Origin: Phenylobacterium sp.
Lineage (GTDB): Bacteria > Pseudomonadota > Alphaproteobacteria > Caulobacterales > Caulobacteraceae
Assembly (NCBI RefSeq): GCF_025351295.1
Contig: NZ_JANXWD010000115.1
Coordinates: 51,666-115,665, forward strand
Reading direction: 5' to 3'
DNA: 64,000 bases
A model generated the notes under the pieces. The model saw nothing but the letters and a program-made list of their open reading frames with translations. It made no database searches and was not told the origin of the DNA. The number at the start of each line of letters is the position of its first letter. Within the stretch, counting starts at the first letter, position 1. Shown here one piece after another: positions 18,769 through 23,553 of the stretch. The position numbers and the translations under genes are program-made.

Positions 18769-19845
18769 GTGCGACTCCCCCAGGCCAGGCTCGACCAGGT
18801 GCTCGACCGCTTCCGCGAGATCGAGGCGCGCATGGGTGCGGCCACCGGCGGCCCCGAGATCGTGCGGCTGGGCAAGGAGCACGCCGAGCTGAAGCCGGTG
18901 GCCGACGCGGTCATGGCCCTGGAGCGGGTCAAGGCCGAGGGGCCGGAGCTGGAGGAGATGGCCGCGTCCGGCGACGCCGAGATGGCCGGCCTGGCCCGCG
19001 ACGAGCTGGAGGCGCTGAAGGACAAGCTGCCGGCCCTCGAGCATGAGGTCGCCCTGCTGCTGGCCCCCAAAGATCGCGACGAGAACGCGTCCGCCATCCT
19101 GGAAGTCCGCGCCGGCACGGGGGGCGACGAGGCGGCGCTGTTCGCCGGCGACCTGTTCCGCATGTACCAGCGCTACGCCCAGACCCGCGGCTGGCGGGTG
19201 GAGATCGACAGCCTGTCCGAGGGCGAGATGGGCGGCTTCAAGGAGGTCGTGGCCTCGGTCACCGGCGACGGCGTGTTCGGTCGGCTGAAGTTCGAGAGCG
19301 GCGTCCACCGGGTGCAGCGGGTGCCGGCCACCGAGGCCCAGGGGCGCATACACACCTCGGCCGCCACCGTCGCCGTCCTGCCCGAGCCTGAGGACGTGGA
19401 GATCGACATCCGCGACCAGGACCTGCGCATCGACACCTACCGCTCGTCCGGGGCCGGCGGCCAGCACGTCAACAAGACCGACTCGGCCGTGCGCATCACC
19501 CATCTGCCGACCGGCATCGTGGTGACCAGCTCGGAGAAGTCGCAGCACCAGAACCGCGCCCGAGCCATGAAGGCGCTGAAGGTCAAGCTGTACGACCAGC
19601 AGCGCGAGGCCCTGGACAGCGCCCGTTCCGAGGCCCGCAAGAGCCAGGTGGGCTCCGGCGACCGCTCCGAGCGGATCCGCACCTACAACTTCCCGCAGGG
19701 CCGGGTCACCGACCACCGCATCAACCTGACCCTCTACAACCTGCCCAAGGTGATGGAGGGCGAGGCCCTGGACGACGTCATCAACCCCCTGATCGCCGAG
19801 GACCAGGCGGCCCGCCTGGCGGCGCTGGAGGACGAGTTCGGGTAG
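18769..19845 (+). CDS. prfA: Peptide chain release factor 1
   Basis: 358 residues, normal for RF1. The catalytic GGQ is at residues 230-232 in [20 protein letters not shown], and the UAA/UAG stop-codon recognition region with the P-A/V-T tripeptide is at [22 protein letters not shown]1 decodes UAG and UAA in the ribosomal A site and triggers peptide release; PrmC, encoded 4.5 kb downstream here, methylates the GGQ glutamine. In related genomes prfA and prmC are adjacent; here the gap holds the 19.87-22.19 kb island, a YihY gene and a MOSC gene. GTG start at 18769. Confidence 0.97.
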
Positions 19846-19852
19846 GGCGAAT

Positions 19853-19889
19853 TCCTCCCCTGTCGGGCGAGGTGGCGCGAATGACGGGA
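19853..19889. repeat. Left half-arm of a REP palindrome, split by the island
   Basis: TCCTCCCCTGTCGGGCGAGG followed by the 18-bp direct repeat. Joined to bases 22189-22195 it forms one arm whose complement is found at 22260-22302. The two arms share GGACCCCCTC at the inner end and CCGAT/CGACAGGGGAG at the outer end. The arm is interrupted exactly at the island boundary. Confidence 0.55.
19872..19889 (+). repeat. attL-like 18-bp direct repeat
   Basis: GTGGCGCGAATGACGGGA, identical to 22171-22188. It lies 26 bases after the prfA stop. Confidence 0.75.
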
Positions 19890-20102: not shown

Positions 20103-20606
20103 ATGAAGCTGTTTGGATTTGGGAAGAGTAGGGAGGAGCGTGCGTCCCAGCTTGACGCGAAGAAGGCCCATGACGCGGCGAACGCCGAAGCCCTTGAGAT
20201 GGGCCGCAATGCCGGAAACGCTATGACCGGCGCGGTCGATCATTTCATCACCTTCCGAGCAAGGCCGGTCGCGGAGAACGTTTATGGGGTCTTCCTTGAA
20301 CAAATCGCGTCCATAAGAAGTAATGAAGAACACTCACCCATCGATCTTGTGCGCATCGAAGCGAAAATCTTTGTAGAAAAGCTTGGCGAATATAAAGACA
20401 GAATGAATGTTGAGTGCCTGGATCATATAAGAGAATGGCTAGACATTGCTGATCAAATGGAAGTTAGAGATACGATTGAGCTCTATATATCAAATAAGCT
20501 GTCTGACATATTCATGGAGCTGTTCGAGAGAAGCGTGAACCGCGCCGCTGAGGTCATAGAAGCCTACCGGGCTCTCGGGTTCAAAGCTGTCCTGACAGCC
20601 GACTGA
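20103..20606 (+). CDS. Island cargo gene A, unknown 167-residue protein
   Basis: I do not recognise a family. ATG 20103 is preceded by GAGGAGCGACACG, a good Shine-Dalgarno. The N-terminus MKLFGFGKSREERASQLDAK is basic, without a signal peptide or membrane helix. The rest is rich in charged helices (KIFVEKLGEYKDRMNVECLD; LYISNKLSDIFMELFERSVN) and is probably an all-helical cytosolic protein. Codon use and AT content differ from the core genome, with several ATA/AGA codons between 20300 and 20530, a sign of transfer. It is followed after 22 bases by gene B, so the two probably work together. Hydrophobic heptads suggest a possible coiled-coil or bundle. Confidence 0.72.
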   Translation: MKLFGFGKSREERASQLDAKKAHDAANAEALEMGRNAGNAMTGAVDHFITFRARPVAENVYGVFLEQIASIRSNEEHSPIDLVRIEAKIFVEKLGEYKDRMNVECLDHIREWLDIADQMEVRDTIELYISNKLSDIFMELFERSVNRAAEVIEAYRALGFKAVLTAD

Positions 20607-20628
20607 CGTGTTAGAATAGTTGCCCACA

Positions 20629-21570
20629 ATGCTAGAGGTATATCGGCTCAAGTATACGAAGGCCCAGCTAGATGTCGTCCCGGACGATGAGCGGATGTTC
20701 ATCCTGAAAATGGGACAACTCGGGAACGAGATAAATCTCCTCAGGTTCCAAATGCTGGTTGCGATGAGGTCGGGTGGGAGTGAGATCCATAACGAGGCAA
20801 GCAACGCCCTCACTCTTATTAACGCGCGTTTCCTAGCTGGCCGCCTCTATGAGGGCTGGGTCTTATGCGGAGCGAACGTGGCGATGCTTAGGAAGTATAA
20901 ACGCGTTGCAGAGGCCAAGGCTGCGTGGCGTGAGATCAGCCGATATTTTTCGGGCGCGGGCGCGCCTATGGGCCAAAAAGCCGACAACAAGCGGCAGAGG
21001 CTCCTTACGTTGGCGCGGTTGGTGCAACTTGAGAGCGTTGACCTGCCGCCAGGAAGCGCGGGACTGGAGATGGCGCGTCGCGAGCTTAAGTCGGCCCCCG
21101 ACCTTTCCGCGAAGGATGCCATCAGGGCCCTACGCGCCGAGGCCGGAAAACTATCGACAGGCTACCAAAGCGTCATTGAGCGGCTGCGGCACAAGGTTGC
21201 GTTCCACAATGACGACGAGGCGGCAGGCGTCGCCTATGACGCCATGACCGCAGACGATGACCTATCCGATTTTCACACCTGCCACCGGGGCGCGGTGCTC
21301 TACGGCAGCGCCCAAACCCTCAATACGCTCATGATGATTTCGGTGACCGGAAACAAGGATCGGGCCGAGGCCGTGGATCGCATCATGGGCGAGATTCACC
21401 AAGTCGCCTCTCATTTCTACGATTACGTAGAGGCGGTCATGCAGAGCTTCTTTGAAAATTACATGCAAGAAGGGTTGGATGCGCTGGAAGACGGAAAGGT
21501 TGTCGTGGATGATGCGATCAAACTTAGCGATATAAAGCTCCAGTATTTTTGCCTTCCAGTGCGAGAGTAA
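20629..21570 (+). CDS. Island cargo gene B, unknown helical protein with HEPN-like R-x5-H
   Basis: 313 residues from ATG 20629; the TTG at 20620 in the track is less likely. It is mostly helical with no membrane segment or signal. The segment VIERLRHKVAFHNDDE (R187-x5-H193) resembles the R-x4-6-H active-site motif of HEPN ribonucleases, and the earlier LTLINARFLAGRLYEGWVL could be the partner helix. HEPN proteins are common in toxin-antitoxin and antiphage systems. Other than this motif there is no assignment, and the resemblance could be coincidence. Same operon as gene A, inside the att-like repeats. The gene ends 64 bases before the start of the integrase remnant's degraded 3' side. Confidence 0.7.
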   Translation: MLEVYRLKYTKAQLDVVPDDERMFILKMGQLGNEINLLRFQMLVAMRSGGSEIHNEASNALTLINARFLAGRLYEGWVLCGANVAMLRKYKRVAEAKAAWREISRYFSGAGAPMGQKADNKRQRLLTLARLVQLESVDLPPGSAGLEMARRELKSAPDLSAKDAIRALRAEAGKLSTGYQSVIERLRHKVAFHNDDEAAGVAYDAMTADDDLSDFHTCHRGAVLYGSAQTLNTLMMISVTGNKDRAEAVDRIMGEIHQVASHFYDYVEAVMQSFFENYMQEGLDALEDGKVVVDDAIKLSDIKLQYFCLPVRE

Positions 21571-21633: not shown

Positions 21634-22146
21634 ACCCCGTATTGCGCCCTTGGCAACCTTCTCAGCGTCCGCCTCTCGCTTGCGGGAAGCCTGCTCCTGT
21701 CGCGCCTCAGCCTCCCAGCGTTCGCGGTCCTCAGCCCGTGCCTGCGCTGCAAGTTTACGTGCCGGGTCGAACTCCTCCGCTAGGCTCTCCCGCTCCCAGA
21801 ACTCGATGCTCTCGATGTCATGTTCGGTCATGGTGTGCGGGATGCGGAGAGGGCGGGGCGGGGCCTCTGCCATGGCCTTCCGGGCGGCCTCGAACTCTTA
21901 ATCTAGCTGCACCCACATTAAGGCGTGCAGCCTTCGCGCCTCTGTGGGGTTGTTCGTGCCAAGCGCCCGAACTTCCTCAGCTTTACCCTTGTAGTGGGGC
22001 ACCAGGGCGAGGGGTATCCGGCGACGGGTGGAGTACATCCCGCCAGCACGGCGGATCAGTCCAGTTGGCATGTCGTTATCCGCATCATGTGTTACAGACA
22101 CAGGCGGCTTCGACATTTCTAACTGACTGATTTTGTTACTTTCCAT
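21634..22146 (-). pseudogene. Tyrosine integrase remnant (N-terminal domain only, nonsense codon)
   Basis: Reading from ATG 22146, RAGGMYSTRRRIPLALVPHY and VRALGTNNPTEARRLHALMW match the DUF6538-type N-terminal domain of phage integrases. An in-frame TAA at 21898-21900 interrupts it; beyond the stop the same frame continues with EFEAARKA and then MAEAPPRPLRIPH, ending in a charged linker helix (ARAEDRERWEAEARQEQASR). After about 21634 the similarity ends, so the SAM-like and catalytic (R-H-R-Y) domains are absent. The track ORF 21262-21873 is this remnant running on into antisense of gene B. The gap 21571-21633 shows nothing else. Confidence 0.72.
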
Positions 22147-22170: not shown

Positions 22171-22188
22171 GTGGCGCGAATGACGGGA
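22171..22188 (+). repeat. attR-like 18-bp direct repeat
   Basis: GTGGCGCGAATGACGGGA, identical to 19872-19889, 24 bases upstream of the integrase remnant start. Confidence 0.75.
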
Positions 22189-22309: not shown

Positions 22310-23455
22310 CTAGCGCGACTTGCTTCGCCGCTTGAGCAGGCCCTGCACCTGCTTCCGCGCGGCGCCGAGCAGCTTGCGCAGGCCCCCGAACCGTACCCCC
22401 ACCGTGTCCGCCATGGCCGCCCCGCGCTTTCCCATCGGCTCGGGCTTGCCGGTGGTCGAGTCGAGGGCGGTCTGGTGTTCGATCTCGGCGTTCAGTTCGG
22501 CGCCCACCAGGACCACCAGGACCGAGAACCAGACCCACAGCATGAAGCCGATCACCGCGCCCAGGGAGCCGTAGGTGGCGTCCAGGCTGGCCACATGGTT
22601 CAGGTACCAGGAGAAGCCGGCCGAGCCGGCCATCCACAGGGCCGCCGCCGCTGTCCCCCCGGGAACCACCCAGCGCCAGCGGGCCGGCTGGCGGGAGGGA
22701 CCGAACCGGTAGGTGGCGGAGACGGCGGCCGCGGCGACCGCGAACACCAGCGGCCAGCGCACGGCGATCAGCCAGTCGGTCCGCAGCCCCGCCGCCTCCA
22801 GCACGATCGGCGCCGCCACCAGGATCGCGCTGACCAGCATCAGGAAGACGATCAGCGCCGCCGTGAAGCCATAGGTCAGGGCGCTCAGCCGCACGAAACC
22901 GCGCTTCTCGGTCTCGTCATAGGCGATGTTCAGGCCGTCGAAGAGCGAGCGCATCCCGGCCGCCGCGCTCCACAGCGAGAGCAGCAGGCTGACCACGAAG
23001 GCCAGGGAGAGGCCGCCGGGCTTGCCGGTCGCCAGCCGCAGCATCTGCTCGCCGATCAGCTTGACCGCCTCGGGCGGAAACACCGCGGAGAGGTCCTTCA
23101 GCTGTTCCTCGACCGCCTTGACGTCGGCGATCAGGCCGTAGAGCGAGACGAACACCCCCAGGGCCGGAAACACCGCCAGCAGGGTGAAGTAGGTGACGCT
23201 GCCGGCCACCACGGTCAGGCGGTCCTGGTTCACCTCCTGCCAGGTGCGCCAGGCGATGTCGCGCCAGCCGCGCCAGGGGATGGCCCCCGGCCAGGCGGCG
23301 ACCCGGCCGCGGCCCGGCTCCTGGGCCTCGAAGGTCGCCGGCGCGGCCACGGTCTGGCGGCTCTGCCCTGGCTGCGGCTTGGGATCGACGCGCACGGGCT
23401 GGGGCGCGGGCGCCTTGGCCGGCCGCCGTCCCGGCGGATTTTTCGCGCGCGCCAA
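22310..23455 (-). CDS. YihY/virulence factor BrkB family membrane protein
   Basis: About 381 residues. TTG at 23455 is preferred, since GGGAGG lies seven bases upstream; the track start is another TTG 15 bases earlier. A proline-rich cytoplasmic N-terminus (about 60 residues) leads to the YihY domain with six helices: VVAGSVTYFTLLAVFPALGV, GLSLAFVVSLLLSLWSAAAG, ALTYGFTAALIVFLMLVSAI and YGSLGAVIGFMLWVWFSVLV. The GAELNAEIEHQTALDSTTGK near the end is a family signature. Function is unsettled; early claims of RNase BN activity for this family were withdrawn in favour of another protein. A basic tail (KQVQGLLKRRSKSR) follows. Confidence 0.88.
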   Translation of the reverse strand: MARAKNPPGRRPAKAPAPQPVRVDPKPQPGQSRQTVAAPATFEAQEPGRGRVAAWPGAIPWRGWRDIAWRTWQEVNQDRLTVVAGSVTYFTLLAVFPALGVFVSLYGLIADVKAVEEQLKDLSAVFPPEAVKLIGEQMLRLATGKPGGLSLAFVVSLLLSLWSAAAGMRSLFDGLNIAYDETEKRGFVRLSALTYGFTAALIVFLMLVSAILVAAPIVLEAAGLRTDWLIAVRWPLVFAVAAAAVSATYRFGPSRQPARWRWVVPGGTAAAALWMAGSAGFSWYLNHVASLDATYGSLGAVIGFMLWVWFSVLVVLVGAELNAEIEHQTALDSTTGKPEPMGKRGAAMADTVGVRFGGLRKLLGAARKQVQGLLKRRSKSR

Positions 23456-23553
23456 GCCAGAACCTCCCAAAGCCGCGCTTGGCGAAACCCCCCGCGCGGG
23501 CTCGCGTTCCGCCGCGCTTGTGAAGCGGCGCGGTTTGCGCCTAAAGCCCGACC

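Follow-up and report, generated by a model that had tools for sequence, protein, structure and literature searches.

Among described proteins, the closest to the locus reported here belong to the HEPN superfamily. In its domains, helix 3 ends with the R-x4-6-H motif, helix 2 bears a conserved acidic residue, the inserts that separate these two helices are variable, and the R of the motif is followed by a polar residue, mostly N, D or H (Anantharaman et al. 2013, PMC3710099). Members of the superfamily occur in defence systems and on mobile elements, as some relatives of the gene reported here do. Specifically, Tha-1, a HEPN anti-phage RNase of 301 aa encoded by a prophage of S. aureus, offers an experimental precedent, with an active site of the R-N-x3-H form (R-x4-H, RNSIMH) located in a C-terminal HEPN domain that follows a separate N-terminal part (PMC11087260). 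In C. difficile, the mobile-element-borne protein AbiF carries an R(N/H/D)xxxH-type HEPN motif and is neutralised by an RNA encoded next to it that has two repeated motifs, an example of a HEPN protein without a protein antitoxin (PMC12373285). Further, HEPN toxins are often paired with an adjacent antitoxin, and in HEPN/MNT (HepT/MntA) modules a predicted HEPN RNase lies beside another gene (PMC7641770).

Our results, from a window of 64,000 nucleotides of Phenylobacterium sp., point to a small island whose second gene, gene B, probably represents a new family of the HEPN superfamily rather than a member of a named one; it is filed as such because most sequence-level hallmarks of HEPN domains are present while no named HEPN family matched. 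Compared by description, gene B and Tha-1 resemble each other in length (313 versus 301 aa), in the R-x4-6-H form of the active site and as HEPN effectors borne on mobile elements (predicted for gene B), but the Tha-1 motif is C-terminal and of the R-x4-H form, whereas that of gene B is central and of the R-x5-H form. Tha is the nearest experimental precedent in design. AbiF, which gene B resembles in its HEPN-type motif and its residence on a mobile element, is the nearest precedent for control by RNA, a mode of control of which no sign was found on the island.

The island spans 2.3 kb of low-GC DNA and consists of gene A, gene B and a broken integrase between two copies of an 18-bp repeat, GTGGCGCGAATGACGGGA (Table 1). 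GC content is 0.50-0.56 in genes A and B (0.56 in gene B) versus 0.70 in the window. In many relatives, the two flanking genes are adjacent and the island is absent. In relatives, tRNA-Asp(GTC) genes end with a 17-mer contained in GTGGCGCGAATGACGGGA, and the genome's own tRNA-Asp, which lies on another contig, differs from the repeat by one base. Thus, an integrative element of the tRNA-Asp type seems to occupy a site other than a tRNA gene, which suggests that it is foreign and has used a secondary site, because the repeat matches the tRNA-Asp end of relatives, no tRNA is present here and the host tRNA-Asp is one base off. A REP-like repeat was also considered as the integration site and was rejected, as it has no other copy in the window. 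No catalytic domain was recognised in the integrase remnant by profile search, and the element is probably no longer self-mobile.

Table 1. Features of the gene B island and its flanks (window coordinates).
Feature	Position	Strand	Basis or remark
prfA, left flank of the island	18769..19845	+	yihY-like gene adjacent in most relatives
Left 18-bp direct repeat, att-like	19872..19889	+
Gene A, 167 aa, orphan, no assigned function	20103..20606	+	ends 22 bp before gene B
Gene B (313 aa), probably a HEPN-type ribonuclease of a new family	20629..21570	+	ORF; homologs with conserved R-x5-H; AF2 helical model
Codon of N33, invariant, helix 1 (AF2 helix 19-46)	20725..20727	+
Codon of E75, invariant acidic residue, helix 2 (AF2 helix 52-82)	20851..20853	+
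Stretch between the codons of helix 52-82 and helix 182-190	20956..21153	+
Predicted RNase active site, codons R187 to H193 (RHKVAFH)	21187..21207	+	R and H invariant in alignment A4; R187 in AF2 helix
Integrase remnant	21898..22146 (region 21650-22146)	-	N-terminal DUF6538 domain (E 2.4e-14), then stop
Right 18-bp direct repeat	22171..22188	+
yihY-like gene, right flank of the island	22310..23470	-

The preliminary description of this DNA had pointed to a HEPN-like R-x5-H motif in gene B, and the motif is indeed there: within VIERLRHKVAFHNDDE of the translation, R is residue 187 and H is residue 193. The bare pattern is not beyond chance, because an R-x(4-6)-H arises in 80% of sequences obtained by shuffling the protein (R-x5-H in 42%, R[NDH]x(3-5)H in 17%) and because gene B itself has two further R-x4-6-H matches, at residues 47 and 251; it was accordingly rejected as evidence in its own right. 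What raises the motif above this background is its conservation among distant relatives. In alignment A4, which comprises gene B and nine homologs that are 12-27% identical to it, only 4 of the 205 gap-free columns are invariant, namely N33, E75, R187 and H193, and the matches at 47 and 251 are not conserved. Were four invariant columns placed at random among the 205, both R187 and H193 would be hit with p ~3e-4, in a calculation that ignores shared ancestry. At the level of the alignment, then, conservation of R187 and H193 lifts the motif above chance. The ten motifs (RHKVAFH, RDNAVAH, RHAAASH, RNKIAAH, RNSYSSH, RNNFAFH twice, RNAYSFH, RNNYGFH and RNKLAFH) have H, D, H and then seven times N after the R, the residues expected of HEPN domains. 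Beyond A4, the C-terminally short homologs on Bradyrhizobium plasmids carry RNNYAFH, and a more distant homolog on a Sphingomonas plasmid reads CKKIRFH, with C replacing the R. The invariance of R187 and H193, proposed in the preliminary description as a test of its reading, thus extends to all ten rows of A4 but not to this one distant plasmid homolog. Between the orthologs of two genomes of a single clade (G957 and G1048), dN is 0.043-0.049 and dS 0.31-0.44 (dN/dS about 0.10-0.16), and purifying selection is acting on them.

The predicted structures are compatible with this assignment. The AlphaFold2 model of gene B, of modest confidence (pLDDT 69, pTM 0.63), is helical, with helices at 19-46 and 52-82, a long low-confidence insert that is about 60 aa longer than in homologs, a helix at 182-190 and a long helix at 245-278. 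Read for secondary structure only, R187 falls inside helix 182-190 and H193 immediately past it. The model of a homolog from a metagenome-assembled genome (L014), which does not have the long insert, scores higher (pLDDT 80, pTM 0.78) and has the same order of elements, with R127 in helix 122-131, followed by H133. In both models, this order fits the HEPN layout, in which helix 2 has a conserved acidic residue and a variable insert precedes helix 3, near whose end the motif lies. Two aspects deviate from that layout. First, the invariant E75 is followed by GWVL and therefore lies outside the Ex3[KR] typical of many HEPN families. Second, helix 1 contains an additional invariant residue, N33.

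Recognition by comparison with known families was negative throughout. Gene B had no significant match among Pfam, NCBIfam, PADLOC and PHROGs profiles, hmmscan with the majority consensus of its family returned nothing, none of the PADLOC-DB defence-system models was matched by the family, and sequence and profile searches with the family reached no HEPN family and no solved HEPN structure. Scans of viral contigs with the A2, P0001, P0002, L014 and L018 proteins found no relatives, and two matches at E about 8e-4, to a valyl-tRNA synthetase-like protein (L003) and a flagellar rod protein-like one (L004), were dismissed on inspection as chance. Because HEPN families are very divergent, the missing profile match speaks against membership of a known HEPN family more than against membership of the superfamily. 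Foldseek searches of the gene B and L014 models against the PDB and viral models recovered nothing at E < 0.1, HEPN structures included. On the fold comparison put forward in the preliminary description, the order of secondary structure elements is HEPN-compatible but no HEPN structure was recovered; the absent match, from Foldseek run without a positive control, is a non-confirmation of the HEPN fold rather than a refutation.

These negative searches, together with the loss of the R in the Sphingomonas plasmid homolog, are what favors the strongest competing explanation, that gene B is a helical protein, for example with a binding or regulatory function, whose R-x5-H resembles that of HEPN domains by convergence and whose four invariant residues have a structural or other non-nuclease role. 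We consider this rather unlikely, given that R and H stay constant in proteins that differ at almost every other position and are accompanied by the polar residue specific to HEPN domains, and given that the motif occupies the place specific to these domains, at a helix end and after a variable insert.

The distribution of the family bears on its possible role. Within the Caulobacteraceae, homologs were found in a contig of Caulobacter sp. BK020 (G091), in G213, in the metagenome-assembled genome L014, as a truncated copy (G098) and as a deleted pseudogene (G041). Two other alphaproteobacterial families contributed G865 as well as G957, G1048, G1038, G990 and the more distant G1036, with partial copies in G1007 and G1053, and tblastn with the homologs as queries added plasmids of Sphingomonas and Bradyrhizobium. 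Homologs were counted in 5 of the 249 genomes from its own family, in 3 of 385 from the class and in 7 of 75 from one other family; of 239 genomes from the phylum, only that of the window had the gene. Homologs are thus sporadic and lie at unrelated sites, as a mobile accessory gene would, and some association with defence is apparent. In G865, G957 and G213, the homolog stands alone amid housekeeping-type genes; in L014 it is flanked by what inspection indicated to be serine recombinases. The truncated copy in G098 (L013, 7377-8904) is inserted in comM, which it interrupts.

Defence genes accompany some of the homologs. That of G1038 (L087, 8518-13284) adjoins an NgoFVII-type PLD restriction nuclease and prophage-like genes of phage-structural appearance, and the short homolog on plasmid pBoOM27 of Bradyrhizobium ottawaense (L080, 1-6561) comes directly after Tle1-like (DUF2235) genes and also adjoins a KAP NTPase and QatB/QatC anti-phage genes; several other genomes with homologs have no defence neighbours. 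Because several homologs adjoin defence genes or sit in prophage-like or plasmid DNA, an RNA-targeting defence role for gene B is plausible.

Whether gene B would act with a partner is a separate matter. The preliminary description had suggested gene A as its partner or antitoxin, and a toxin-antitoxin pair, with B as the HEPN RNase and A as the protein antitoxin, would agree with the frequent pairing of HEPN toxins elsewhere with an adjacent antitoxin (PMC7641770) and with the arrangement of the two genes, which share the island, a strand and a lower GC and are separated by 22 bp. Gene A, however, has no relatives in 199 genomes of the family, in phages, plasmids or viral contigs, or beside other gene B homologs, which in the genomes inspected have no conserved partner. 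Nor does it match Pfam or NCBIfam or contain a nucleotidyltransferase or antitoxin domain, so that the likeness to HEPN/MNT (PMC7641770) ends at the side-by-side arrangement of two genes, gene A being neither a recognisable nucleotidyltransferase nor conserved with gene B. With zero co-occurrence, the antitoxin assignment was rejected: a gene found nowhere else is unlikely to be the antitoxin, and gene A may have come to lie next to gene B on the island by chance. We therefore regard the paired toxin-antitoxin system as improbable. Least probable of all, to a degree that makes it very doubtful, is a HEPN toxin held back by an antitoxin RNA in the style of AbiF-RCd22, for which the existence of such an arrangement in C. 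difficile (PMC12373285) speaks. Against it, scans of the island revealed neither tandem repeats nor any Rfam match, and nothing resembling a terminator was seen in the interval from A to B, although an RNA of a new type is conceivable.

With regard to expression, a promoter-like match (9/12) in the region 20592-20628 of the window ends 8 bases before the ATG start codon of gene B, ahead of which no obvious Shine-Dalgarno is present. From these sequence features, gene B may have a leaderless transcript of its own. Across the island, promoter-like matches occur at a frequency near the chance level.

The explanation that we favor is that gene B belongs to an uncatalogued family of HEPN-type RNases and is the island's cargo, an abortive-infection effector. 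Directly supported for this family are the conserved residues, the helix order, the horizontal mobility, the purifying selection in one clade and the defence neighbours of some homologs. Specifically, gene B would be a metal-independent HEPN-type endoribonuclease that arrived as cargo of a small integrative element, with R187 and H193 in its active site, probably together with E75 and perhaps N33, the site likely being formed where the two subunits of a dimer meet, as it is in known HEPN RNases. It would act as a solitary effector, normally silent and switched on by phage or another stress, whereupon it would cut host or phage RNA and growth would stop, the outcome known as abortive infection. 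We consider this whole statement, in which we infer the fold, the RNase activity, the dimerisation, the trigger and the defence role, on balance likely, and our confidence in the active-site prediction by itself is higher. More tentatively, and with the odds rather against it, the family could constitute an unrecognised and mostly single-gene anti-phage system, that is, a mobile family of HEPN RNases in which the N-E-R-H quartet is invariant and a sensor of its own resides in the variable insert or the C-terminal part, distributed through Alphaproteobacteria and missing from today's family and defence libraries.

If the favored explanation is right, the HEPN ribonucleases would gain a sequence family that current annotation misses, carried in Alphaproteobacteria on islands, plasmids and prophage-like DNA. 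It is the distant homologs that turn an R-x4-6-H, insignificant by itself, into a real prediction.
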